NCBI GenBank assembly: GCA_030602785.1
Contig: JAUVZB010000002.1
Coordinates: 48,458-112,457, forward strand
Source: Dehalococcoidia bacterium
GTDB taxonomy: Bacteria; Chloroflexota; Dehalococcoidia; GIF9; AB-539-J10
Length of the DNA: 64,000 nucleotides
Direction of reading: 5' to 3'
In this document: one piece after another, positions 18,100 through 34,500 of the stretch
How positions within the stretch are numbered: position 1 is the first letter of the stretch
Layout: every line of letters starts with the position of its first letter
Translations under genes and position numbers: made by a program
Notes under the pieces: model-generated
Database searches by the model: none
What the model was told of the DNA's origin: nothing
Seen by the model: only the letters and a program-made list of their open reading frames with translations

Positions 18100-18168
18100 T
18101 TCGGGTCACCGGACGGGTGTAGAGAAACCGGGAAGGTGCCAGGTCTCCACGTTGGCGTCACGTTCGGT

Positions 18169-18250
18169 GCCGAGGGAGGGACTCGAACCCACACTCCCTT
18201 GCGGGAAGCGGATTTTAAGTCCGCCGCGTCTACCATTCCGCCACCTCGGC
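18169..18250 (-). tRNA. tRNA-Leu (anticodon UAA)
   Basis: gccgaggtggcggaatggtagacgc...gacTTAAAAtcc...ggttcgagtccctccctcggc; variable arm present. Confidence 0.93.
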
Positions 18251-18293
18251 GTTGAGGCCCGGTACGCGAGACAGGACGAAGGAGCAGAAAACA

Positions 18294-18366
18294 AGGCGGC
18301 GAGCGGATTCGAACCGCTGAATAGGGGTTTTGCAGACCCCCGCCTTAACCTCTTGGCTACACCGCC
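18294..18366 (-). tRNA. tRNA-Cys (anticodon GCA)
   Basis: ggcggtgtagccaagaggttaaggcgggggtctGCAaaacccc...ggttcgaatcc. Confidence 0.93.
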
Positions 18367-18390
18367 ACGAAGGCAAGTCAAACAGAATGG

Positions 18391-18462
18391 AGCGGAAGAC
18401 GAGATTCGAACTCGCGACCTCCTCCTTGGCAAGGAGGCGTTCTACCACTGAACTACTTCCGC
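18391..18462 (-). tRNA. tRNA-Gly (anticodon GCC)
   Basis: gcggaagtagttcagtggtagaacgcctccttGCCaaggagg...gttcgaatctc. Confidence 0.93.
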
Positions 18463-18512
18463 CCGCTCGCTATTGTACTGTCTCCTTCTCACCTCGTTCA
18501 AGGAAGAAAGAG

Positions 18513-18596
18513 TGCCGAGGGGGAGACTTGAACTCCCACGCGCTTGCGCGCACCACCCCCTCAAGATGGCGTGTCTACCTATTCCACCACCTCGGC
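18513..18596 (-). tRNA. tRNA-Leu (anticodon GAG)
   Basis: gccgaggtggtggaataggtagacacgccatcttGAGgg...gttcaagtctc; variable arm present. Confidence 0.92.
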
Positions 18597-18600
18597 ATGG

Positions 18601-18674
18601 CAGGGGCGGCAGGACTCGAACCCACGACCGGCGGTTTTGGAGACCGCTGCTCTACCAAACTGAGCTACGCCCCT
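18601..18674 (-). tRNA. tRNA-Trp (anticodon CCA)
   Basis: aggggcgtagctcagtttggtagagcagcggtctCCAaaaccgc...gttcgagtcc; CCA tail encoded. Confidence 0.93.
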
Positions 18675-18695
18675 AGATACCAAAGATATTCCTCA

Positions 18696-18769
18696 TACCC
18701 CTGGGGCGACTCGAACGCCCGACACGCGGTTTAGGAAACCGCTGCTCTTTCCTACTGAGCTACAGGGGC
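18696..18769 (-). tRNA. tRNA-Arg (anticodon CCU)
   Basis: gcccctgtagctcagtaggaaagagcagcggtttCCTaaaccgc...gttcgagtcg. Confidence 0.92.
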
Positions 18770-18772
18770 AAG

Positions 18773-18845
18773 TGGAGATAGGGGGACTCGAACCCCCAAC
18801 CTCCGCGATGCGAACGCGGCGCTCTCCCAGCTGAGCTATATCCCC
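18773..18845 (-). tRNA. tRNA-Ala (anticodon CGC)
   Basis: ggggatatagctcagctgggagagcgccgcgttCGCatcgcgg...gttcgagtccc. Confidence 0.92.
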
Positions 18846-18957: not shown

Positions 18958-19572
18958 CTACGGTCCCCACTGTTCGTAGAGGATAACCTCGCGCCTGCAC
19001 CGGGGGCAGAGGAAACTCACATTGTCCCCACGCTCAAGAGCCCTGGCCGGATCGCGCATGCTCTCAGCGACCAGGCCAAGATCCTGGCTCAGCATGAGGG
19101 CAAGACCCATGTTGCCGAACGCCTTGGGCCCCAGTCTCTGCGCCACCCAGCGGATCTGGTCCACAGTGGCTATGACCTCGCCGCACTCCTGGCAAATGAC
19201 CAATTCCTTCTCAACAGTCGACACCGCGAGCGTCCGGTCATAGGTGCCAGTGTCAAACTCGTTCGTCAGCACAACACCTTCCAACGTCGTGCAGTAGCGA
19301 TGACACTGGCCACAGAAGATGCAGTGGTCGTGGTGAATGGTCAGCACGCGACGTCCCTTGCCATCCTCCACATGGTCCACAACTTCGATTGCGTTCGCAG
19401 GACACACCTGGGCGCACGCTCCACAGCCAATGCAGTCCGCCTCAACGAACTTCGGCTTGCCACGGAAGGCCTCCGGCGGCACGGACGGCTCGTAGGGAAA
19501 GCGTATTGTGTAGGGCCGGCTGAAGAGAGACCGTAGCGCCTCTCCAAGCTCCCTGACTTTGGGTGTCCTCAT
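18958..19572 (-). CDS. 4Fe-4S ferredoxin-type hydrogenase subunit (HycF/NuoI-like)
   Basis: CIGCGACAQVCPANAIEV and CIFCGQCHRYC; CxxC...CxxC Zn/Fe-type C-terminal motif. Confidence 0.88.
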   Translation of the reverse strand: MRTPKVRELGEALRSLFSRPYTIRFPYEPSVPPEAFRGKPKFVEADCIGCGACAQVCPANAIEVVDHVEDGKGRRVLTIHHDHCIFCGQCHRYCTTLEGVVLTNEFDTGTYDRTLAVSTVEKELVICQECGEVIATVDQIRWVAQRLGPKAFGNMGLALMLSQDLGLVAESMRDPARALERGDNVSFLCPRCRREVILYEQWGP

Positions 19573-19575
19573 AGT

Positions 19576-21027
19576 CTAAGCTCCAAGCATGATTGCGCGG
19601 ACAGCGGGTTGGAGTACGTGCTCAATGAACCACGGGAACGTAAAGCCGAGCGCTATACACGCGGCAGCCAGAACAACCGCCGGCGCATACATGCTGACGG
19701 GGCTCTCCTTGACGCCACGCAGAGCCTGCGGCAGCGCTCCGAAAAACACGCCGCGCTCGTACCTCAGGAAGTACCCGATTGTGATCACGGCTCCGACCGC
19801 TGCCACAACCGCAAACCCTGTCTGGCCGGCCTGGACCGCAGCTACGATTATCAGGAGCTTGCTCCAGAAGCCGTTGAAGGGCGGGCACCCGCTGATCGAG
19901 AAGAAGCCGATGGCCGACGTCACGCCTGTCACAGGCATCCTGCTGTTCAAGCCGCCCAGCTTGCAGATATCACGAGTTCCTGTCTGGCGTTCAACCGAGC
20001 CGGCCCCGAAGAAGAACAGCTCTTTGAAAAGAGCGTGGTTCACAAGATGAAACAGCGCACCAATGAGCGCCAGCGGCGTACCGAGGCCCAGGCCCAGCAA
20101 CACGTATCCCATCTGGCTGATAGTGCAATAGGCAAGAAGACGCTTCATGTCGCTCTGGACCAGGGCAAGCAGCGCGCCCGCAAGTATCGACAAGGACGCC
20201 AGAACGAGCAGCACAGTCGAGAACACGCCCCCCGGTACAAACACGAGGAAAAGCAGCCGCATGAGTCCGTAGAGCCCGACGACTTTGATGAAGACGCCGG
20301 ACAGAACGGCAGATACCGGAGCCGGCGCCGTTGAGTGCGCGTCCGGAAGCCACGCATGATAGGGCACAAACGCCGCCTTCAAGGCAAGGCCGGAGAGGAG
20401 AAGCACGGCCGGCAGCCCAACGCCCGCAGCGGTGGCGGAACCCATCGCTGCCATCTCGCGGAACGACACCGTGCCCAGGCAGTTGTACGTCAGTCCGATG
20501 CCCGCAATCAGGCAGAGCGTCCCGACGGTGCCGAGCACCTGGTACTTGAACGACGCCTCGAGGTATTCCTTGCCCAACCCGTATGCCACCAGGGCATAGC
20601 ACGCAAGTGCGGCCACCTCAATTCCGACGTAGAGATTGACGAGGTCGGCACCGAGAACAACCATGTTCATACCGGCCAGCATCAACAAAAACAACACGTA
20701 GTACTTCGCCTTCGACGTGTACGACTCCATGTAGGAGACGGAGTAGACCGATGCGGCAAGACAACCCACCGCGCTGACAAGCAGCATCAGGAGGCTCAGC
20801 CCATCCGCACTGAGGCTTATCCCCAGGGGGGACGCGCCACCCATGGACCAGGTCAACGTTGTCCCACCCAGAACCGGACCCGCGACGGCGAGCGCGAGGC
20901 CCAACACGACTACCGTTCCAACATTGCACAGGACGTCGGCAACTCGCTCAGCGCCTCTGGAAAACAACGCTATGGCAAGTGCTGCCGCGAGAGGCACAGC
21001 TATCAGCGCAGGAAGAACAGCACTCAT
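19576..21027 (-). CDS. Proton-conducting membrane transporter (NuoN/MrpD-like)
   Basis: 483 aa polytopic; SGLALKAAFVPYHAWLPDAHSTAPAPVSAVLSG, LLAYCTISQMGY. Confidence 0.92.
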   Translation of the reverse strand: MSAVLPALIAVPLAAALAIALFSRGAERVADVLCNVGTVVVLGLALAVAGPVLGGTTLTWSMGGASPLGISLSADGLSLLMLLVSAVGCLAASVYSVSYMESYTSKAKYYVLFLLMLAGMNMVVLGADLVNLYVGIEVAALACYALVAYGLGKEYLEASFKYQVLGTVGTLCLIAGIGLTYNCLGTVSFREMAAMGSATAAGVGLPAVLLLSGLALKAAFVPYHAWLPDAHSTAPAPVSAVLSGVFIKVVGLYGLMRLLFLVFVPGGVFSTVLLVLASLSILAGALLALVQSDMKRLLAYCTISQMGYVLLGLGLGTPLALIGALFHLVNHALFKELFFFGAGSVERQTGTRDICKLGGLNSRMPVTGVTSAIGFFSISGCPPFNGFWSKLLIIVAAVQAGQTGFAVVAAVGAVITIGYFLRYERGVFFGALPQALRGVKESPVSMYAPAVVLAAACIALGFTFPWFIEHVLQPAVRAIMLGA

Positions 21028-21323
21028 CCCTTGAGTCTCCTCATCTCACGGATATCCAGCGTCCCGTATTTCTCATACAGGCGCACCGCTGTGACAGTCA
21101 TCAGGGAGACAACCGACGCCCCACCGATGACAGCCATAAGACCCACCGTCTGCGAGACCTCAGCAACCGATGAGCCTTCCATCCCGACCACCACTACGAG
21201 TGCCGCGACTCCCAGCACCATCATCTCAATGCCGAGGACGACCTTCAGGAGGTTCCGCTTGAGCAGAACGCCGTAGAGGCCAACTGCGACAAGCAGTACT
21301 GAGAAGAGACACAGCTGGCTCAT
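21024..21323 (-). CDS. NuoK/MrpC-like membrane subunit
   Basis: About 100 aa, 3 TM; GLYGVLLKRNLLKVVLGIEMMVLGV; 4-nt overlaps with neighbours. Confidence 0.88.
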   Translation of the reverse strand: MSQLCLFSVLLVAVGLYGVLLKRNLLKVVLGIEMMVLGVAALVVVVGMEGSSVAEVSQTVGLMAVIGGASVVSLMTVTAVRLYEKYGTLDIREMRRLKG

Positions 21324-21784
21324 TCGTCCCTCCTTCCTGTCTTGCGAAGCATCGCCCACACAGCCGCCAGCGCTGAAATGACCACGATGACTTCACGCAG
21401 GAGCCCCACGTGACTGCCGGCCTCACCATCTGTCCGCGCAATCGTCTCAACCGGGCAATATCCTCTCAGCACCAGGAGGGCAACAATCACGAACGCAACG
21501 ACAGTCACGATTGCCAGAACGCTGCCCGCTCCTTCGCCGAGCGCAGGCACGGTGTCCTCAGCCCCGGTGCGGCCAATGGCCCATTTCATCACGCCCAACA
21601 CCACAACCACCGCCACGACAGCGCCCACTCCCACCTCAACGGCCCCCGCGACAAACATGGCCACGGCGAACAGGACGAGCGCCACTCCTGTCGCCACGAG
21701 CGACTTCTTCAACTGCCGTAGCTCGAGTGCCGCAACGCCGGCAATCGCACTCAACACAAGCAACACAGACACCGGACTCACCAT
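21320..21784 (-). CDS. NuoJ/MrpB-like membrane subunit
   Basis: 154 aa polytopic, between the NuoK-like and NuoL-like genes. Confidence 0.7.
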   Translation of the reverse strand: MVSPVSVLLVLSAIAGVAALELRQLKKSLVATGVALVLFAVAMFVAGAVEVGVGAVVAVVVVLGVMKWAIGRTGAEDTVPALGEGAGSVLAIVTVVAFVIVALLVLRGYCPVETIARTDGEAGSHVGLLREVIVVISALAAVWAMLRKTGRRDE

Positions 21785-21794
21785 AATCTATGTC

Positions 21795-23699
21795 CTAGCC
21801 AACAACCGATAACACAACAAACAACACCAGAACACCCCACAACATCCAGGAGACGTAGGTAGACAGTCTGCCGCCGTGCAAGGCGCTCAGAGCCCAACCA
21901 AGCGGAGCTGCAAGCTTGCTCAATCGCTGTATGTCGAAGGCGCCACTCTCACCCTTGTCATAGAGCCGGCTCAAACCAGGCAGCCTTCGTATGCTGTCAT
22001 AGAACTCGGTCCCGAGCACGCGGGTATCAGACATTTCCCTGTTCCGCCCATACTTCGTGTTCAGAGAGTCGCTCGTTCCTTCTCCGGCAGTCTCCCCTCC
22101 GATGTAGACTGGCGCAATCCGAACCGAACGGGTCCGCGACGCGAGGTAGATGAAATACCCGATGAGCAGCGCCAGGAGCAACAGCGCCGTGGCGACTGTC
22201 GGACTCCAGATACCACCAATTGATATGGCTTCAGGGAATGCGGGGAACTGCATGCCAACAGCCGGGCCGATGAAGTGCTGCAGCGGCACCTGGGCAGCGA
22301 CTCCAAAGATGACGCACAGCGTGGCGAGAACAGCCGGGGCAAAGCGCATTGATGGCCCCACCTCAACAACACCTGACAAGCCCCTGGGACTATCCCCAAG
22401 GAAGACGCCATGCGCCACCTTCACGAAAGACGCGAGCGTCAGGGCGCTACCGAACATGGCGGCAACCAGGAATATCCAGTACCTGTCAACGCCGGCCTCA
22501 ACAATGCCCTGGTAGACCATCCACTTCGAGACGAACCCGTTCAAGGGCGGAATGCCTGATATGGCCAGCGCAGCTATGCCGAATGCAACAAATGTGAATG
22601 GCATCACGCGAGCCAGGCCTCCCAGCTTCGCAATATCCATGGTGCCTGTTCGCTTCTCCACCGCCCCTGCTGTCAGGAAAAGGCAGCTCTTGTAGATGGC
22701 GTGGTTCAGCATGTGGAACAGCCCGCCGGCAATGCCTATCGCGGTCCCGGTTCCGATGCCAAGCACCATGTAGCCGACCTGTGACACCGCGTGGAATGAC
22801 AACAGCTTCCGCAGGTCATGCTGCACCATCGCCATCACCACAGCAGCCACTATCGTCACAGCCCCTATGACCATCAGGAGCAGATTGAGGGCAAGGTTGA
22901 CCTGGAATATGTCAAGGACGAGCCTTGCAAGCAAATATATTCCCAGCAGCTTGTCGAGGGATGCAGGTAGAAGCGCCATGACCGATGTGGGAGCCGCCTC
23001 CGCCATGTCAGGAATCCAGCTGTGCATCGGCATTGCGCCGGCCTTCGACAGGGCGCCCAGCATGATGAGGACAAACGCTGCCGCCGACATGGAACCCGTG
23101 ACGGGCAAAGACGTCTCACTGAGTACGAGCGTGCCTGACTGCGCGAACACCAGGCCGACACCCAGTATGAGAGCCAGATCTGCAGCTCCAAGGATTATCA
23201 TGCTCTTGCCGGCCGCACGCATCACCTTGTTCGCATCCGCGTCCGCCGCGCCGATTGTGGTGAGAAGGAAGAGGGTCACGAGTATAAGACCCCAGAACCC
23301 CACAAACGCCAGCCAGTTGTTGGCAAGAAGCGCGCCGTTCGCGGCGCCGATGCTTATCAGCACGTAGGGGTAGTATTCCCGCAACCTCGACCTACCCCGC
23401 ATGTAGCCAAGTGAGAACACGGTCACGAGAAGTCCGAACAGGGTGGCGAACATGACCATGAACCTGTTCAGCTCGTCAATGCGCAGGTCGACAAGATAGC
23501 CCTGCACGAAACCGAGTGAAATCGCACGATACGATGCCTCCGGCCCCACGAGCACAACCATGCCCAGCAGGAACACAGCGCCACTCACAACCGTGCTGAA
23601 CACTTCGCGGAACTTCTCCGCCCTGACGGGGATGGCAAACGCAACCGCCCCCGCAATCAAGGGCAGGAAGACAACCCACGGCAACACGGGAGAACTCAT
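21795..23699 (-). CDS. Proton-conducting membrane transporter (NuoL/HyfB-like)
   Basis: GALSKAGAMPMHSWIPDMAEAAPTSVMALLPASLDK, LLSFHAVSQVGYM; start MSSPVLPWV overlaps the upstream stop. Confidence 0.92.
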   Translation of the reverse strand: MSSPVLPWVVFLPLIAGAVAFAIPVRAEKFREVFSTVVSGAVFLLGMVVLVGPEASYRAISLGFVQGYLVDLRIDELNRFMVMFATLFGLLVTVFSLGYMRGRSRLREYYPYVLISIGAANGALLANNWLAFVGFWGLILVTLFLLTTIGAADADANKVMRAAGKSMIILGAADLALILGVGLVFAQSGTLVLSETSLPVTGSMSAAAFVLIMLGALSKAGAMPMHSWIPDMAEAAPTSVMALLPASLDKLLGIYLLARLVLDIFQVNLALNLLLMVIGAVTIVAAVVMAMVQHDLRKLLSFHAVSQVGYMVLGIGTGTAIGIAGGLFHMLNHAIYKSCLFLTAGAVEKRTGTMDIAKLGGLARVMPFTFVAFGIAALAISGIPPLNGFVSKWMVYQGIVEAGVDRYWIFLVAAMFGSALTLASFVKVAHGVFLGDSPRGLSGVVEVGPSMRFAPAVLATLCVIFGVAAQVPLQHFIGPAVGMQFPAFPEAISIGGIWSPTVATALLLLALLIGYFIYLASRTRSVRIAPVYIGGETAGEGTSDSLNTKYGRNREMSDTRVLGTEFYDSIRRLPGLSRLYDKGESGAFDIQRLSKLAAPLGWALSALHGGRLSTYVSWMLWGVLVLFVVLSVVG

Positions 23700-24901
23700 A
23701 TCTCCAGCCAACTCCTCGAACGCTGTGGGAAACTCCGCTCGAGCTCCTTCGTGCGTTCCCACGAAAGATCGAGGAGGTTCTTCTCATCCAGCGCTTCCAC
23801 CGACTTTCCGTCCTCCATGCGGACAGCACGATTCGTACAGCAATAGCACGGGTCGATCGACGCCAGGATAATCATGATATCCGCCACTCTCTCACCGATG
23901 AAGCGAGACCTGAAGGACGGCAGGTTGGAGAACGTAGGCGCACGCACCTTCAGTCTGTAAGGGCAATTCGTGCCGTCGGACCGCACGTAGTGGAAGCACT
24001 CACCCCGTGGCGCCTCCTCGACCCCGATGCCCTCACCCGGAGGAACTTCAGGAATCTCCTCAAGAATCGCCCCCTCAGGAATTCCATCCACGCACTGGCG
24101 GACGATTTTCACGGCTTCAAGAATCTCAAGCAGCCTCACCACAGCCATGGCCAACACATCTCCATCTGTCTGAGTGATGACGTTCCACTCAACAGCATCG
24201 TAGGCTGCATAGGGGTAGTCTCTGCGGGTGTCGATGTCGACTCCCGCGCTCCTGGCCACAGGCCCCACAGTGCAGCGTTTCACGGCATCCTCACGGCTGA
24301 GCTTTCCGACGCCTTTCAGTCTCGCGAGCATGACGGGATCATCGAGTATCGCGCCGATGAACATGTTGATCTTCGGCTCAAGCTCATCCATAGCCTTGAC
24401 AATGCCGCTGTACTCCGAGGGCTTGATATCCTGTCGCACTCCGCCCGGCTTGATCATCGCGTAGGACTGCCGGTTGCCGGAGATTCTCTCGAAGAGATCG
24501 CAGACTAGCTCGCGATACCGCCACGACCACATCCAGACCGTGTGGTATCCGATGTAGTGGCCGGCCAACCCGAGCCACAGCAGATGGCTATGCATACGTT
24601 CGAGCTCCGCAACGATGGACCGTATGTACCTGGCTCGCTCCGGGATCTCCACACCGACCAGGTCCTCGACCGCCTGGCAGAACGCTATGGGATGGGAAGT
24701 GGAGCAGATTCCGCAGATTCTCTCCACCAGGAAGACGACCTGGTCATAGGTCTTGCTCTCCGCAATCTTCTCAATGCCACGATGCATGTAGCTCGTGCGC
24801 CAATCGATATCGACAACCCTTTCGCCCTCCACGACAATGCGGAACAGTTCCGGCTCTTCAATCAGAGGGTGATATGGACCAACAGGTATGGTAGTCCTCA
24901 T
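23696..24901 (-). CDS. Group 4 [NiFe]-hydrogenase large subunit-like (HycE/NuoD family)
   Basis: L1 motif ERICGICSTSH and L2 motif DPCYCCTNR retain both CxxC NiFe ligand pairs; 44-aa C-terminal extension. Confidence 0.9.
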   Translation of the reverse strand: MRTTIPVGPYHPLIEEPELFRIVVEGERVVDIDWRTSYMHRGIEKIAESKTYDQVVFLVERICGICSTSHPIAFCQAVEDLVGVEIPERARYIRSIVAELERMHSHLLWLGLAGHYIGYHTVWMWSWRYRELVCDLFERISGNRQSYAMIKPGGVRQDIKPSEYSGIVKAMDELEPKINMFIGAILDDPVMLARLKGVGKLSREDAVKRCTVGPVARSAGVDIDTRRDYPYAAYDAVEWNVITQTDGDVLAMAVVRLLEILEAVKIVRQCVDGIPEGAILEEIPEVPPGEGIGVEEAPRGECFHYVRSDGTNCPYRLKVRAPTFSNLPSFRSRFIGERVADIMIILASIDPCYCCTNRAVRMEDGKSVEALDEKNLLDLSWERTKELERSFPQRSRSWLEI

Positions 24902-25407
24902 TCTGTCCCCTTGCTCCGAATCCGCTTCCTGACTTCTTCCTGTTCCTCCTCAGTCCGGTAGGGGTACCTCCCCTTGTTTTCCTTCCTGTAGGGGTACTCG
25001 CCTTCAGGCCAATCGTCGGCGAGAATGAATCGAGCGGGATTGGGATGACCGATGAACTCGACGCCGAAGAGATCGGCAATCTCTCTTTCGATGTATTCGG
25101 CGCCGTCTATGATTGTGGCAATCGAATCGATCCGGGGTTCCGGCATCGGCACAACCGCCCTCAGGGTCAGGATTTTCCCGAGCTGATCGAACGAGAAGTG
25201 GTACAGAAGCTCCATCCCCGCACGGGTCTCGAGTCCGGTCAGGATAATCAGGCGAGCTCCCATGTCCGTAAACAGAAAACTCGAGATATCCCTGACCTTG
25301 CCCGGCACGATGCTGGCATAGACCCTGGAGTCAGACCGTAGCTCTACATCAGCAACGGCTTCAGGGAAACGCTCTTGAAGGCTCTTGACAGGATCCACGT
25401 TTCTCAC
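24898..25407 (-). CDS. NuoC/HycE N-terminal-like 30 kDa subunit
   Basis: EREIADLFGVEFIGHPNPARFILADDWPEGEYPYRKE. Confidence 0.92.
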   Translation of the reverse strand: MRNVDPVKSLQERFPEAVADVELRSDSRVYASIVPGKVRDISSFLFTDMGARLIILTGLETRAGMELLYHFSFDQLGKILTLRAVVPMPEPRIDSIATIIDGAEYIEREIADLFGVEFIGHPNPARFILADDWPEGEYPYRKENKGRYPYRTEEEQEEVRKRIRSKGTE

Positions 25408-25414
25408 CTATCTC

Positions 25415-25852
25415 CTAAAGCTTGGCAAGCCCCTTGACCACCCCGGCGATAATCGCCTCCGGTCGGGGGGGGCAGCCGGGAATGTACACATCAACCGGAA
25501 TTATCTTGTCCAGAGGTCCCACCATATGATAGCTGCCATCGAATATGCCTCCGCTGCATGCACAGGCGCCGATTGCGACAACGAGGCATGGCTTCGCGGT
25601 CTGTTCGTACACATGCAGCAACCTCGGAAAAGTCTGCATCGTCACAATCCCAGTAACCAAAAGCACATCCGCATGCCGGGGCGACCCGACGAGAATAATG
25701 CCAAATCGCTCGGCATCGTATTTCGGTGTTAGCACATCGAGAATCTCGATGTCGCAGTTGTTACACGAGCCGGTATTCAGATGGAACGCCCAGGGTGACT
25801 TCTTGAGTCCCCACCGGGATAACTTGCTCAGCTTTCTTTCGCTTTCTTCCAT
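25415..25852 (-). CDS. [NiFe]-hydrogenase small subunit-like (HycG/NuoB family)
   Basis: LNTGSCNNCDIEILDVLTP, GACACSGGIF, YIPGCPPRPEAI. Confidence 0.93.
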   Translation of the reverse strand: MEESERKLSKLSRWGLKKSPWAFHLNTGSCNNCDIEILDVLTPKYDAERFGIILVGSPRHADVLLVTGIVTMQTFPRLLHVYEQTAKPCLVVAIGACACSGGIFDGSYHMVGPLDKIIPVDVYIPGCPPRPEAIIAGVVKGLAKL

Positions 25853-25856
25853 TTCA

Positions 25857-26789
25857 CTACAAGCCCAGTGAGGCCAGCACTATGCCCACGATAGAGAGAA
25901 CCAGGACCGGCCCCCAGAAGAACCGGAGCGCCTGGTCGATTCGAAGTCGCGGGTTCGTGTTCTTAATCAGGGCCACGAATACCAGGATGAGGACGTACCA
26001 CAGTATGGCCCACGGACTCCACGCTGTCGTGGCGAAAAGGGTAATCAGGAACACGGGCAGCACACACACCAGCATCGCTTTCGTCAGCTTGAATGCAGCC
26101 AGCGGCACGCCCGAGTATTCGGTGTATGGTCCCGCTATCAACTCGCACTCGGCCTCCGGTATGTCAAACGGTCCCACAGCCAGCTTCGCTGGCACATATA
26201 TCAGCGCCACGATGAAAGCAATGATGCACGAGATCCCCTGTGACAGCATCGGCCCGCTGGCCTGCTGGTAGGCGACCATTCCGCCGAGAGACACAATACC
26301 GCCGTTCTTCACAACGAGCGTGAAGACCGAGAGGAGGAACCCAACCTCGTAAGCCAGCATCAGCTTCATCTCGCGGCTGGCGCCGAGAGCTGCAAAAGGA
26401 TTTCGGGAGGCCGAACCTCCGACTATGAGAGCCAATGATGGCACATACAAAAGATACAGCACTACGATGAGGTCGCCCACAAACCCGCCGTCAGGTCGGA
26501 TGCTCGCCATCCAGAGTACCGTGGACACGACCACAACCGCGGCGAACCCCACGAAGGGGGCACCGAGAAAAGTGAGCTTCGCGCTCCCATCGGCAACGAC
26601 GGTCTCCTTACCCAGCAGCTTCGCCACGTCGGCAAAGGACTGGTACCAGGGAGGGCCAACGCGCCACTGGAGCCTCGCGCTCAACTTGCGGTCGAACCAC
26701 GACGACAGTAGGCCCACAACAGCCGTGAATACGAACCCCGGGAACACGGCCACCAGACCAACGTACGTCAGCAGATTCGTCAGAGACAC
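25857..26789 (-). CDS. NuoH/HycD-like membrane subunit
   Basis: GPPWYQSFADVAKLLGKE, PFDIPEAECELIAGPYTEYSG. Confidence 0.93.
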   Translation of the reverse strand: MSLTNLLTYVGLVAVFPGFVFTAVVGLLSSWFDRKLSARLQWRVGPPWYQSFADVAKLLGKETVVADGSAKLTFLGAPFVGFAAVVVVSTVLWMASIRPDGGFVGDLIVVLYLLYVPSLALIVGGSASRNPFAALGASREMKLMLAYEVGFLLSVFTLVVKNGGIVSLGGMVAYQQASGPMLSQGISCIIAFIVALIYVPAKLAVGPFDIPEAECELIAGPYTEYSGVPLAAFKLTKAMLVCVLPVFLITLFATTAWSPWAILWYVLILVFVALIKNTNPRLRIDQALRFFWGPVLVLSIVGIVLASLGL

Positions 26790-26791
26790 GC

Positions 26792-27271
26792 CTATACTCT
26801 CCTGAAGAACGGATGACGCCCCTTCATGCTGGAGCCAATCATGACGCTATTCTCAGCGATTTCGTCAGCCTCTTCATACGTGAGGGCGTCTGCAGGACAT
26901 GCCATGACACACGCCGGCTCCCTGCCTTCCTCCAACCTCGAGGCGCAGAGGTCGCACTTGGAGATCACGTATGACCGGATCTCCGGCTCAATCACACCAA
27001 AGGGGCACGCCACCACACACGAGCCACAACCCGTGCACAGCATGTTCATTCTCTTGATTGCCCCACTATCGAGCTTCTTGATAGCGCCCTGGGGGCAGGC
27101 GGCGAGACAGGCAGGCTCCTCGCACTGACGGCAGATGAACGGCAGTCGAACATCTTCCCGCAACTCACCGTACCCTATCGTAGGCCTGTGCTCATTGTGT
27201 GAGTAGTCACACGCCGCCGAGCATGTCCGGCACGCGATGCAACGATCGATATTGACGAAGACTCTCTTCAT
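26792..27271 (-). CDS. 4Fe-4S electron-transfer protein (HycB/CooF-like)
   Basis: CIACRTCSAACDYSHNEH, CRQCEEPACLAACPQGAI, CTGCGSCVVACPFGVI, CDLC. Confidence 0.92.
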   Translation of the reverse strand: MKRVFVNIDRCIACRTCSAACDYSHNEHRPTIGYGELREDVRLPFICRQCEEPACLAACPQGAIKKLDSGAIKRMNMLCTGCGSCVVACPFGVIEPEIRSYVISKCDLCASRLEEGREPACVMACPADALTYEEADEIAENSVMIGSSMKGRHPFFRRV

Positions 27272-29031
27272 GACTTACGTTTCCCGGTCACTCGCGCAGC
27301 CCCGGGGGCCGTGGAGAACCAGCCATCATCTACTGCACGCCATGAGAAAAGGGCTCTCATCTTCACATCATATTCGGGCACTGCGACGACGCCAGCCTGC
27401 AGCCGGTCCGTTATCCTGGCCGTCGCCTCGGCCTCACCAGAGGCCGACGTCAGCACAATGGTGTCTCCATCACATATGCCTTCAGCCGCTGCGTCCACCT
27501 GGCTGAGCTCGACGAAAGCTCCGGGGAAAATCTCCGCAGCCCAGTCCATCCAGCGCGTAACGCTGCCGCAGCCGGAATGGCCGCTCGCAGCCAGGCTGAA
27601 GACCATCTTCTCCTGCGCCGGCGCCGCGACAGCCGCGCTCCTGACAGACTCAAGCCGCTCCGGAAAGTTCGCAGCCGAGAAGACAGCAGCCTCGCTCGAA
27701 GACCCCGGACTCCCCGCTTTCGACGCAGAATCGTCTCCACCATCCAGGGAGCGTTCCAGTAGTGAAATCGCGTCGCCCACCGGGAGCGCACCCCATGACG
27801 GGGGCACGACGGCCTGCCAGTTCTCAACGCTGCCATCAAAGGACGTTGCCGAGCCTGCGGATTCGAGCCACGACGCAGCGGCAAGTACGACGGATGACAT
27901 GTGCTCCATCTCTCCAGGGAGCATCGAGCACGTCGCGACCAGTTCAAGTCCACCAAGAGCCTTCTTCAACTCCGACGAAGGGTATGCCGCGCTGATGTCG
28001 GCCCCGAAGCTCAACAATGCCCTGCACTTGCCCGACTCGAGGTCGGCCACAAGTTGGGACACAGGCTTCCAAGACTCTTCAATCGCGACCTCCAGGGCTC
28101 CCCGCGAGTTGCCGGCAGACGGCAACGAAACATACTGCTTGTCAGCACCGGCAATGGACGCCAGAAGACTGGCGAGGCTCGACACAAGGGCGACATCGGA
28201 GATTCCCCGCACCGGCGGCGCAACAAGCACCGCAGCTTTCTCGGCATCCACGAACGAGCGCGCCATTCGCGCCACCGTCTCTCTGGAAACGCCGGCTGCG
28301 TCCAGAAGCCTCGCGTCATCCACAGTGTCAACCCACCCGGCGGACTCGGAGTCCGCCCTGCCAAGAGCCCTGACTGCCTTCAGCATTGCGGCAAGGACAA
28401 GGGCCTCAGTACCGGGGCGGTTCTGCACGTGCTCGCTCGCGAACCATGCGGTGTTGCTCCTTCGGGGAGCCACAACGAACAGACTGTTGCCACGCGCCGC
28501 GTACTTGGCATCGATGATTCGCTTCGATAGAACAGGATGTGTCGTGAACACATCTCCAAACACAACGATACAGGCGGCTTCCTCGAGGCAGGACGCGTCT
28601 GCGCTCCCGCCGGCCGCCATCAGAGGCCAGTCCTGAGGCTCACACACACACGACACGGCGTCCGTGCCGACACTGCGTGCCAGCCGTCCGACGGCTCGAA
28701 GCTCCTCTGTGCTTCGTGTCGAATCAGTCACTATCGCCACGGATTGCGGGCCGGAGGCGCCGAGAATCACTTTCAGTCGAGAGGCCAACTCCCCGACGGC
28801 AACATCCCACGCAGCCTCCCTGAGCCTCCCCTCCCTTCGAACGAGTGGGGCTGCTATGCGCTGCGGATGGTTCAGCAACTCAGTCGCGTAGAGCCCGCGA
28901 GGGCACACACGGCCATCATTGAGGCCCTGGCCGGGGCAGAATTCCGGACCCACGACTGCCTGGCCTTTCACTCTGAGGCCTATCTTGCAACCCAGAGGGC
29001 ACAGAAGACAGAGCGACTCTTTTACATCCAT
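27268..29031 (-). CDS. Molybdopterin oxidoreductase-family (formate-dehydrogenase-like) protein, divergent
   Basis: CLLCPLGCKIGLRVKG...CPRGLYATELLNHPQRI N-terminal [4Fe-4S] motif; C-terminal molybdopterin-dinucleotide-binding-like domain. Confidence 0.78.
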   Translation of the reverse strand: MDVKESLCLLCPLGCKIGLRVKGQAVVGPEFCPGQGLNDGRVCPRGLYATELLNHPQRIAAPLVRREGRLREAAWDVAVGELASRLKVILGASGPQSVAIVTDSTRSTEELRAVGRLARSVGTDAVSCVCEPQDWPLMAAGGSADASCLEEAACIVVFGDVFTTHPVLSKRIIDAKYAARGNSLFVVAPRRSNTAWFASEHVQNRPGTEALVLAAMLKAVRALGRADSESAGWVDTVDDARLLDAAGVSRETVARMARSFVDAEKAAVLVAPPVRGISDVALVSSLASLLASIAGADKQYVSLPSAGNSRGALEVAIEESWKPVSQLVADLESGKCRALLSFGADISAAYPSSELKKALGGLELVATCSMLPGEMEHMSSVVLAAASWLESAGSATSFDGSVENWQAVVPPSWGALPVGDAISLLERSLDGGDDSASKAGSPGSSSEAAVFSAANFPERLESVRSAAVAAPAQEKMVFSLAASGHSGCGSVTRWMDWAAEIFPGAFVELSQVDAAAEGICDGDTIVLTSASGEAEATARITDRLQAGVVAVPEYDVKMRALFSWRAVDDGWFSTAPGAARVTGKRKS

Positions 29032-29037
29032 GTTTCT

Positions 29038-29862
29038 CTACGTCCAGGCATCAGGAAAGTCACATATCTGGTCATACGTGAACACCGGGCCGTCTTTGCA
29101 GACGTAGTAGTTGCCTATCCGGCAGTGTCCGCACAGACCCATACCACAACTCATGTTCTTCTCCATCGAGAAGTACATGTGCTCCGGCTTGAAGCCCATC
29201 TTCAGAAGCAGCGGCGCCATGAACCGCAGCATGATCGGAGGACCGCATCCTACCGCGACCGCGTTCGGGATGTCCTTGATGTCCTCAGGTTTCATGATTG
29301 TCGTGACGACGCCTACGTTGTGCCGCCACGATTCAGCAGCAACGTCAACCGTGTAGACAACATCAATCCTTGGATCGGTCTCCCACGAGAGACAGAGCTC
29401 CTTGTACATTCTCAATTCCGGGTTGCGTGCACCGTAGCGAAGGACGATGCTCGTGTACTGCTCGGCCTCGTGCAGGAGCGCAAGGAGAACTCCCCGCATA
29501 GGGGCCATTCCCACTCCACCACCCACAACGTAGACCTCTCGCCCCTTGAAGTAGTCCATCGGGTACCCGTTGCCGAACGGGCCTCTCACAAGAGCTGTCT
29601 GGCCGGGTTTCGCATTGTGCAGCGCAGTCGTGTTCTTGCCGTGAGGCTGTATCTGCACGCTCACTTCGAACTTCTCAAGGTCAAAGCTGGATGATGACAC
29701 GCCGAACGGGGACTCTCCGACCCCCGGCATGCCAGCCATAACGAATTGCCCGGGTTTGAAGCAGAGCGGCTCCCTCGGTTTCAGGACGAATGTCTTGATG
29801 GCCGAATTCTCATCGAGAAGGTCCAGTATCTCCGCTTCGACGGGCAAGTAGGGGTTAGTCAC
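29038..29862 (-). CDS. FAD/NAD(P)-binding oxidoreductase (sulfhydrogenase gamma/HydG-like)
   Basis: Ferredoxin-reductase-like FAD domain, GGGVGMAPMRGVLLALL, CGMGLCGHCRIGNYYVCKDGPVFTYDQI; GTG start inferred. Confidence 0.88.
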   Translation of the reverse strand: MTNPYLPVEAEILDLLDENSAIKTFVLKPREPLCFKPGQFVMAGMPGVGESPFGVSSSSFDLEKFEVSVQIQPHGKNTTALHNAKPGQTALVRGPFGNGYPMDYFKGREVYVVGGGVGMAPMRGVLLALLHEAEQYTSIVLRYGARNPELRMYKELCLSWETDPRIDVVYTVDVAAESWRHNVGVVTTIMKPEDIKDIPNAVAVGCGPPIMLRFMAPLLLKMGFKPEHMYFSMEKNMSCGMGLCGHCRIGNYYVCKDGPVFTYDQICDFPDAWT

Positions 29863-30898
29863 TCTGGCTTTCCTCCAGGTCGTGGAGTACCTGTCGCATG
29901 TCGATCCCGGCGAGGCATGCCTCGATGCAACGACCACAGCCGGTACACGCCATCATGTCGAACTTGGACGGGTAGAACTGGAACTTCTTCACGTACTTGT
30001 TTTTGAACCTGTCATTACCTGTTGCACGTGCGCTGTGTCCACCGCCGACGCGCGTGTAGCCACGCAGGTAACAGAAGTCCCACACCCTGACACGCTCGTT
30101 CTGGTCGCCCACTTTCTGATCGTAGAGAACAAAGCAATGGCAGGTCGGGCACACGGCGAGACAGGCGGCGTCCTCCCTGCATCTGCCGACGTACTTAGTC
30201 CAGGCGGGGGACTCGAAATTCGACTCGACGAGTTCAGTGAAGGAGTGGGTGGTCTCGAACTCGCGATTCTGCTCTTCCACCGTCCTGCGTGTCTGCTCCC
30301 TGTTGCGCTCGCGCTCCGCGAGCTGTTGGTCAGTCGCCTCGCTCAGCTCTACGCCGTCAACATCGAGAAGCCTCGCCCCCTTCTCGGTGCCGACCTCCAC
30401 GACGAGACCGCCGGACACGACAGCCACACTGAGATCGAAACCGCTCTGCGGATAGGGCTTCATGTCCAGGAGTGTGCAGAAGCAGGTCGGAGCAGGAGCG
30501 GAGCAGTCGGCGCCTATCACAAATGCCTTCTCGCGCCTCGAAACCCAGAACGGATCCTGGATATCCCCCATGGCAAACGTCTGGTCAAGGCATTCAAGGG
30601 AACGCAAATCGCAGTTCTTCGCACCGACAAGCACAAACCCCGGTTCATCATCAAGGGGATCGGGTCCGGAAGGGTACTTTGCGACGGTCTCTTTGAGGTG
30701 GAAATAGAAAGTCTTCAGAGGCTCGACAGCGCGGATTCCGTCCAATTCGGGCTTGGCCCCTGTCTCCGGGGCAAACCGCCACCAGTGGCGGTGCCCGGCT
30801 CTGGAGACCGGCATGTAGACCGGCCTGTCCTGAGCCCAGGAACCCATCAATCGCTCGAATTCAGACGACGTGATGAAGAATGTCGACATCTGATTCAA
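29855..30898 (-). CDS. 4Fe-4S dicluster protein (sulfhydrogenase beta/HydB-like)
   Basis: VGAKNCDLRSLECLDQTF, CREDAACLAVCPTCHCF, CTGCGRCIEACLAGID. Confidence 0.87.
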   Translation of the reverse strand: MNQMSTFFITSSEFERLMGSWAQDRPVYMPVSRAGHRHWWRFAPETGAKPELDGIRAVEPLKTFYFHLKETVAKYPSGPDPLDDEPGFVLVGAKNCDLRSLECLDQTFAMGDIQDPFWVSRREKAFVIGADCSAPAPTCFCTLLDMKPYPQSGFDLSVAVVSGGLVVEVGTEKGARLLDVDGVELSEATDQQLAERERNREQTRRTVEEQNREFETTHSFTELVESNFESPAWTKYVGRCREDAACLAVCPTCHCFVLYDQKVGDQNERVRVWDFCYLRGYTRVGGGHSARATGNDRFKNKYVKKFQFYPSKFDMMACTGCGRCIEACLAGIDMRQVLHDLEESQSD

Positions 30899-31007: not shown

Positions 31008-31037
31008 ATTATACGAGGCGCGCTGAAACAGTGTCAA
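31008..31037 (-). promoter_or_regulatory. Near-consensus sigma70 promoter TTGACA-N18-TATAAT of the hydrogenase operon
   Basis: Minus strand TTGACActgtttcagcgcgcctcgTATAAT, about 110 nt upstream of the first CDS. Confidence 0.75.
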
Positions 31038-31483: not shown

Positions 31484-31942
31484 CTACCTGGTGTGGTAGA
31501 GCATGAACATCTGTTGCCTGGTTGCCGCCAACTGGTCAGCCGCGATTCTGACAACCCGCTCCATCACGCGGGCGCAGATGTCCGGGTACGTCTCGCACAG
31601 CTTCCGCATGCGTGACCCATCCAGGACAACCAGCGCGGAATCAGTCACTGCCTTGGCAGTACTCGTGTACCGATAGGGCGGGACCAGAGCCTCCCATCCG
31701 AATACCTCGTTTCGCTTCAGGGACGCCACCTGAAGGCGCGTGTCCGGAATCGCCTCAATCTCCAGATTCACGCGTCCCGAATCCAGGACATACAGCTCGG
31801 TGCTCTCTGCGTTCTCTGTGAACACGACTGCGTCTGTAGAGAAATGCTGAACCCGGACGACGCTCAGCCTGACCATGTCGAGTTCTTCGTCACTGATACC
31901 GTGAAATATTCCAACTTCCTTGAGACGATCTACGCTCACCAT
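31484..31942 (-). CDS. Cyclic nucleotide-binding domain protein (Crp/Fnr effector domain only)
   Basis: GISDEELDMVRLSVVRVQHFSTDAVVFTENAESTELYVLDSGRVNLEIE; no HTH C-terminus. Confidence 0.85.
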   Translation of the reverse strand: MVSVDRLKEVGIFHGISDEELDMVRLSVVRVQHFSTDAVVFTENAESTELYVLDSGRVNLEIEAIPDTRLQVASLKRNEVFGWEALVPPYRYTSTAKAVTDSALVVLDGSRMRKLCETYPDICARVMERVVRIAADQLAATRQQMFMLYHTR

Positions 31943-33648: not shown

Positions 33649-34500
33649 CTAGAGGCCAAGCCACTCGAAGGCGCCCATCATCCTCAGGCCCACGTAGACC
33701 ATCAGAACGACGAACAGCAGCCTCAGTCGGCGGGCATCAACCACGTGCGCGGTTCGCGCACCTAACTGCGCCATTGGTATGCTCAGGACGATGAGGGCGA
33801 ACCCCACTGCCAGGTTCACGTAGCCCAGGCTGTAAGGAAGCCTGTCCGGCACGCCGAGCCCGTTCGCAATGTAGCCCACAATACCGCCGAGGGCGGCGAA
33901 GATGATTGCGGCGCTCGACGTGGCCACCGCCCGCCGCATGGGGAAATGGAACAGTAGAACCAGCGCCGGCACCATGAGCGCCCCTCCGCCCAACCCCGTG
34001 AGTCCGCTGACAACCCCCATTACAACACCAAGCACAACCAGATGCACGCGCTTTGGCTGAGGCCAGGACTCGCCCGCGCACGACTCTTCCCGCAACCCAA
34101 CACCCATCCTCACGGCTATCACCAGGACCAGCACTCCGAAGCCCATCTTGAGAACACTCCCCGGCAGACTCGCCGCAACCGTCGAGCTTGCCAGCGCTCC
34201 AACAAGTCCGCACGGGCCAAGAACGAGAGACACGTTCCAGACAACGGCGTCGCACTTGTGATGGCGCCAGGTGCTACTTGCGACGGTGGGAATGATGACG
34301 AAGAGGCTCGTTCCAAAAGCTGTGAGCAGCGCAACGTCTTCAGCGACGCCGGCCCCGGACATGACCCAGTACATCACGGGAACCATGATAAAGCCGCCCC
34401 CCACACCCAGCAGCGCTGCGGTGAAGCCAACCACTGCCCCGGTTACGACAAGGATTGGCAGGAAATCAAACACGCAGGCCGCCTCCCGGGCATTTCGCAA
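33649..34500 (-). CDS. TauE/SafE-family sulfite exporter/permease
   Basis: AALLGVGGGFIMVPVMYW, GLTGLGGGALMVPALVLLFHFPMRRAVATSSAAI; 8 or so TM. Confidence 0.9.
   Translation of the reverse strand: MRNAREAACVFDFLPILVVTGAVVGFTAALLGVGGGFIMVPVMYWVMSGAGVAEDVALLTAFGTSLFVIIPTVASSTWRHHKCDAVVWNVSLVLGPCGLVGALASSTVAASLPGSVLKMGFGVLVLVIAVRMGVGLREESCAGESWPQPKRVHLVVLGVVMGVVSGLTGLGGGALMVPALVLLFHFPMRRAVATSSAAIIFAALGGIVGYIANGLGVPDRLPYSLGYVNLAVGFALIVLSIPMAQLGARTAHVVDARRLRLLFVVLMVYVGLRMMGAFEWLGL

Follow-up and report, generated by a model that had tools for sequence, protein, structure and literature searches.

The closest described relative of the system considered here is a region of Saganbacteria RX5A, reported in 2019, in which a group 4 [NiFe]-hydrogenase stands with Mrp-like genes, a molybdopterin oxidoreductase that could not be classified as a formate dehydrogenase (FDH), cooF, asrA and asrB; it was termed enigmatic, and relatives of its hydrogenase were noted in Zixibacteria and Omnitrophica (PMC6349859). 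Under other names, the same part list makes up a 13-gene operon on the minus strand (18958-30898) of the window, by which we mean the whole 64,000-nucleotide stretch analysed from a Dehalococcoidia bacterium (GCA_030602785.1, contig JAUVZB010000002.1, positions 48,458 to 112,457). This comparison is one of gene content taken from the paper's text only, and that text, as far as it was available, contains neither an active-site analysis nor an NAD(P)H mechanism; the set described here also differs in coming from Dehalococcoidia. The shared part list means that our operon belongs to a kind that had been noticed previously and left uncharacterised, and the initial annotation, which took the gene set to be undescribed, was mistaken on this point. 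New here are the occurrence in a Dehalococcoidia lineage, the loss of the molybdopterin-family protein's active site and a testable mechanism; the gene set itself had already been reported. We lean towards the view, and would call it reasonably probable on the sequence evidence, that the operon encodes an ion-translocating NAD(P)H:H+ oxidoreductase able to run in either direction, assembled as one complex I-like membrane complex.

Several better known enzymes resemble parts of this operon. Formate hydrogenlyase (FHL) of Escherichia coli (Hyc, PDB 7z0s/7z0t) offers counterparts in HycB, HycD, HycE, HycF, HycG and an FdhF-family protein, but its FdhF is active and it has no HydB or HydG, whereas the window's operon has two antiporter-like subunits and NuoJ/K-like proteins. 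The membrane-bound hydrogenase (MBH) of Pyrococcus furiosus (6cfw) is alike in its group 4 large subunit and antiporter-like membrane arm, yet it is ferredoxin-dependent and Mrp-type, and does not group with our hydrogenase in the tree described below. P. furiosus sulfhydrogenase I (group 3b, 9nez) has beta and gamma subunits homologous to HydB and HydG; it differs in being soluble and in having group 3 alpha and delta subunits. A conceptual precedent for a pyridine-nucleotide link to an MBH/MBX-type complex is found in the MBX-type operons of the Desulfurococcaceae, where an NAD(P)H oxidoreductase gene replaces fdhA beside such a complex, although the flavoprotein there is of the SudA type, not HydB/HydG, and no molybdopterin-family (Mo-family) protein is present (PMC3035292). 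Finally, respiratory complex I shares the membrane arm, the NuoB/C/D/H/I folds and a non-catalytic Mo-family protein, NuoG, in its electron wire, while the operon carries HydB/HydG in place of NuoEF and a Ni-binding large subunit in place of NuoD.

The source genome, that of an uncultured bacterium probably of soda-lake type, is a metagenome-derived assembly of 141 contigs (2.57 Mb, 95% complete), and a check of the window's open reading frames (ORFs) found all 13 collinear genes where the initial annotation had placed them, with the 4-nucleotide overlaps that it had described. Pfam and NCBIfam profiles supported the proposed identities of 12 of the 13 products; for the NuoJ-like one (21320..21784), a small membrane protein with about five predicted transmembrane segments (TM), the profile search matched no Pfam family, and its identity stands on position and hydrophobicity alone. 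The synteny comparison that had been suggested was run with tblastn, using each of the 13 proteins as a query on related loci, and the gene order recurs in at least four other genomes. G003 and G002 have it complete, G004 has it divided between two contigs, and G111, from a different family of the same class, has all the genes in order, the first of them truncated by the contig end; four partial loci (G006, G034, G029, G031) are consistent with it. This recurrence across relatives excludes a chance arrangement.

The NuoD-like large subunit (23696..24901) carries RICGIC...SH and DPCYCCTNR motifs, and in the alignment the N- and C-terminal Ni-binding CxxC pairs (RICGIC and DPCYCCT) are present in all orthologues, as is a C-terminal tail that extends about 40 residues beyond the second motif, which reads DPCYSCTER in G111. 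Its closest PDB relatives are MBH (E 4.8e-80) and HycE (E 4.3e-79), with complex I behind (7e-62). In an IQ-TREE phylogeny of 43 sequences, in which the group 4 PDB references were HycE and MBH only, the orthologues form a single clade (support 100/99) and the complex I proteins a separate one (99/98), with the operon's subunit outside it; closest to the orthologues, though weakly supported (82/75), stand HycE and a Chloroflexota sequence of FHL-like type. An origin as a complex I paralogue was accordingly rejected, on tree position and Ni ligands. HydDB, for its part, lists 4f and 4g as groups of undetermined role (PMC5037454). The search for maturation genes, like the tree a check that the initial annotation had named, found hypB, hypF, hypC, hypD and hypE clustered on contig C56, and one HycI-type peptidase on contig C64. 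By its ligands, its place in the tree and these maturation genes, the large subunit is to be judged a genuine group 4 [NiFe]-hydrogenase, much as had been proposed, and profiles show that the same operon encodes membrane subunits resembling NuoH and antiporters. Searches of the genome turned up one further [NiFe] large subunit, which the tree also assigns to group 4. This second one, on contig C64, groups with MBH and is adjoined by Mrp genes, the HycI peptidase and a coenzyme A-disulfide-reductase-like gene (L040/L041), a neighbour that hints at a link between the MBH-type hydrogenase and sulfur metabolism. Two further observations concern relatives: hypB lies directly upstream of the operon in G031, and genomes of the same genus encode a third group 4-like large subunit (L046, L047 and relatives) that stops right after DPCIGCTER and has no C-terminal tail.

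At the other end of the proposed electron path are the first two genes. HydB (29855..30889; HydB/AsrA-like, 4Fe-4S, sulfhydrogenase beta type) and HydG (29038..29862; HydG/AsrB-like, sulfhydrogenase gamma type, binding flavin adenine dinucleotide (FAD) and NAD(P) and carrying a [2Fe-2S] cluster) have as their closest solved relatives the beta and gamma subunits of P. furiosus sulfhydrogenase I (9nez_B, E 3.7e-41, and 9nez_C, E 7.2e-48), just as the sulfhydrogenase-type pairing proposed at the outset would have it. Profiles recognise NAD-binding, FAD-binding and DHODB-type Fe-S domains in HydG. Since both proteins match that enzyme, NAD(P)H input is likely. Targeted searches of the genome found no second HydG homologue and no group 3 large subunit; with one other [NiFe] large subunit present, HydB/HydG are unlikely to serve a soluble sulfhydrogenase whose other subunits are encoded at a different place in the assembly. 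An anaerobic sulfite reductase, AsrABC, was rejected as an identity for the locus, as profile searches found no AsrC-like gene, the catalytic component, among the 13. In four genomes of the genus one cysteine of HydB's first ferredoxin motif is an aspartate (CREDAAC), reminiscent of Asp-ligated ferredoxins, and the cysteine is present in G031 and G111.

The third gene (27268..29031) encodes a Mo-family protein of 587 residues that retains its N-terminal 4Fe-4S cysteines (CLLCPLGC...C) in every orthologue complete at that end. Aligned with E. coli FDH-H, it has Gln, Asp and Ser at the positions of selenocysteine (Sec) 140, His141 and Arg333 (FDH-H, or FdhF, numbering). None of the aligned orthologues has Cys or Sec at the FDH Sec position, and a conserved C...P.D..L motif stands in place of the FDH motif. 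For an archaeal FDH, a Cys-His-Arg set has been named as the catalytic residues (PMC8965080). With the triad replaced, formate coupling is unlikely, and the initial annotation, right in seeing a diverged Mo-family protein, erred in crediting it with a working Mo site and formate-like oxidation. For the same reason membership of the FHL family, which would call for an active Sec/Cys-His-Arg FDH subunit, was rejected. One might still imagine an FHL-type complex in which formate is oxidised, or CO2 reduced, at this subunit, with the NAD(P)H module as a second outlet: the gene order, with a molybdopterin oxidoreductase and HycB adjoining a group 4 hydrogenase, is FHL-like, the large subunit groups, if weakly, with HycE, and the best NCBIfam model for the Mo-family protein is formate dehydrogenase alpha. 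That match scores 177 bits, however, far under the 666-bit cut-off; an FHL-like locus in another Chloroflexota genome (G728) has kept the Cys that every orthologue here has lost, and the RX5A homologue likewise defied classification as an FDH (PMC6349859). We consider this idea most improbable.

It is about equally hard to believe that the subunit acts on some other substrate, through Mo or W that, like the metal of arsenite oxidase, receives no thiolate ligand from the protein, which would make this a dehydrogenase-hydrogenase operon of a different kind. Profiles still pick out molybdopterin and dinucleotide-binding domains in it, and the C...P.D..L motif that replaces the FDH one is conserved; yet the neighbouring genes offer no candidate substrate, and the protein is the fastest-diverging of the soluble subunits, with 55% identity to G003 (HydG 82%, NuoD 85%) and 36% to G111 (HydG 57%, NuoD 68%), which suggests that a catalytic role was lost rather than gained. 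In the StnC structure a catalytically inactive FdhF-like domain is kept and is required for assembly (PMC10482914), and we think that our Mo-family subunit, like StnC or NuoG, probably has no catalytic role and serves as a wire or scaffold.

How, then, might an ion-translocating NAD(P)H:H+ oxidoreductase work? We infer the complex itself, the electron path, the coupling to ions and the direction from the parts just described and from those that connect them, namely the HycB/CooF-like polyferredoxin with 16 Cys (26792..27271; profiles and alignment), the NuoI/HycF-like two-cluster ferredoxin with C-terminal CxxC...CxxC (18958..19572; profile and alignment), the NuoB/HycG-like hydrogenase small subunit with its proximal 4Fe-4S cluster (25415..25852; Pfam Oxidored_q6 7.4e-32 and alignment) and the NuoC-like subunit (24898..25407; Pfam Complex1_30kDa 5.5e-21). 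The FAD of HydG would take a hydride from NAD(P)H, and electrons would leave it through the [2Fe-2S] cluster of HydG for the clusters of HydB, passing from there to those of HycB and possibly also to the Fe-S cluster of the Mo-family subunit, which would probably perform no Mo chemistry and, like NuoG and StnC, would act as a wire or scaffold. The NuoI-like ferredoxin would come next, followed by the NuoB cluster and the NiFe site, where protons would be reduced to H2, and the reaction would be coupled to movement of H+ or Na+ through the NuoH/L/J/K/N-like arm. Run one way, such an enzyme would dispose of NAD(P)H as H2; run the other, it would use H2 to drive NAD(P)+ reduction.

The membrane arm comprises, besides the NuoJ-like protein, a NuoH/HycD-like membrane anchor (25857..26789; Pfam NADHdh 1.7e-60), a NuoK/MrpC-like subunit (21024..21323; Pfam Oxidored_q2 1.9e-18) and two antiporter-like subunits. 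The NuoN/MrpD-like one (19576..21027; Pfam Proton_antipo_M 3.2e-68) retains the TM5 Glu, as does the Mrp-type homologue. The NuoL-like one (21795..23699; profile and alignment), whose start at 23699 agrees with the initial annotation, has a long C-terminal lateral stretch conserved in orthologues and Trp at the TM5 Glu position in all those aligned, with its lysines kept.

Several points weigh against the NAD(P)H:H+ oxidoreductase that we favour. The loss of the TM5 Glu means that the part of the NuoL-like subunit in ion transport may be reduced, and full pumping by the membrane arm should be assumed with caution. NADH lies near -280 mV and H+/H2 at -414 mV (PMC9304861), so that NADH-driven H2 release would pump ions at very low H2 only; the direction would depend on H2 pressure and the ion gradient. 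An AlphaFold2 model of the Mo-family subunit, built with 7 sequences, has a mean pLDDT (predicted local distance difference test) of 51, too poor to judge the pterin pocket, and the Foldseek matches obtained with it are general family ones (FDH, Nap, Stn/Nfn-ABC, NuoG). Electrons could also enter from ferredoxin at HycB or the NuoI-like subunit. This last point leads to a ferredoxin-linked or electron-confurcating hydrogenase, in which reduced ferredoxin enters at those subunits and electrons are merged or divided between ferredoxin and NAD(P)H at the flavin of HydG, around H2. Such an arrangement would solve the energy gap between NADH and H2, and it fits the two polyferredoxins of the operon as well as the Stn/Nfn-ABC complexes among the Foldseek matches, electron-bifurcating systems from which FdhF-like domains are known. 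In sulfhydrogenase I, however, the HydG homologue functions as a plain NAD(P)H site, and the operon provides neither a second flavin subunit nor a bifurcating partner of the StnAB or HydBC type, for which reasons we regard confurcation as unlikely.

As to where the operon is found, our homologue searches covered Dehalococcoidia and Chloroflexota, and its occurrence beyond Chloroflexota rests on PMC6349859. Even within the genus it is patchy, in that no orthologue was found in G001 or G005 (93-94% complete). All the named genomes with a relative of the hydrogenase are metagenome-assembled genomes of Dehalococcoidia, several labelled CSSed or CSMAG and others Zod or M55; going by soda-lake papers, CSSed probably stands for Cock Soda Lake sediment. 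In a 393-genome sample of the class, strong matches to the Mo-family protein and to the hydrogenase co-occur in the same genomes, the exception being one distant match in G098 (L078), a Mo-family protein of about 830 residues that likewise has no Cys or Sec at the FDH position.

At the front of the operon, the most likely start of HydB is the ATG at 30889, and that of HydG was revised to the GTG at 29862 because the listed ORF is 25 codons longer and relatives have stop codons within that extension. About 120 nucleotides upstream of the first start codon lies a promoter-like site, TTGACA-N18-TATAAT (31008..31037, minus strand), which matches the sigma-70-type consensus at 12 of 12 positions; the upstream region holds four promoter-like sites against 3.3 expected, so that the perfect match alone is notable. 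Beyond it, a small protein with a cyclic-nucleotide-binding domain (31484..31942, minus strand; Pfam cNMP_binding 2.2e-13) is encoded upstream of the operon in G003, G002 and G004 as well (76-84% identical), and a two-domain homologue sits between HydB and HydG in G031; a role as regulator of the operon is possible. A TauE/SafE-type permease (33649-34500) is also conserved upstream in three relatives, and seven consecutive tRNA genes follow directly downstream on the operon's strand (18166-18845).

More tentatively, and as a possibility that we take seriously without committing ourselves to it, the operon may stand for a distinct class of energy-converting hydrogenase, a ‘hydrogen complex I’ with a sulfhydrogenase module for NuoEF and a dead FDH-like protein for NuoG, which would link NAD(P)H directly to H+/H2 and to an ion gradient; the logic of complex I would then have been assembled a second time, independently. 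With the active site of the Mo-family subunit lost, the annotation puzzle of 2019 becomes a testable claim. If the proposed function is correct, this would be a natural NAD(P)H-linked, ion-translocating hydrogenase, and it would explain how anaerobes that have no soluble NAD(P) hydrogenase exchange electrons between NAD(P) and H2. It would also provide a parallel to complex I, in which the same hydrogenase-derived core separately acquired a module for NAD(P)H and a Mo enzyme that had been disabled.

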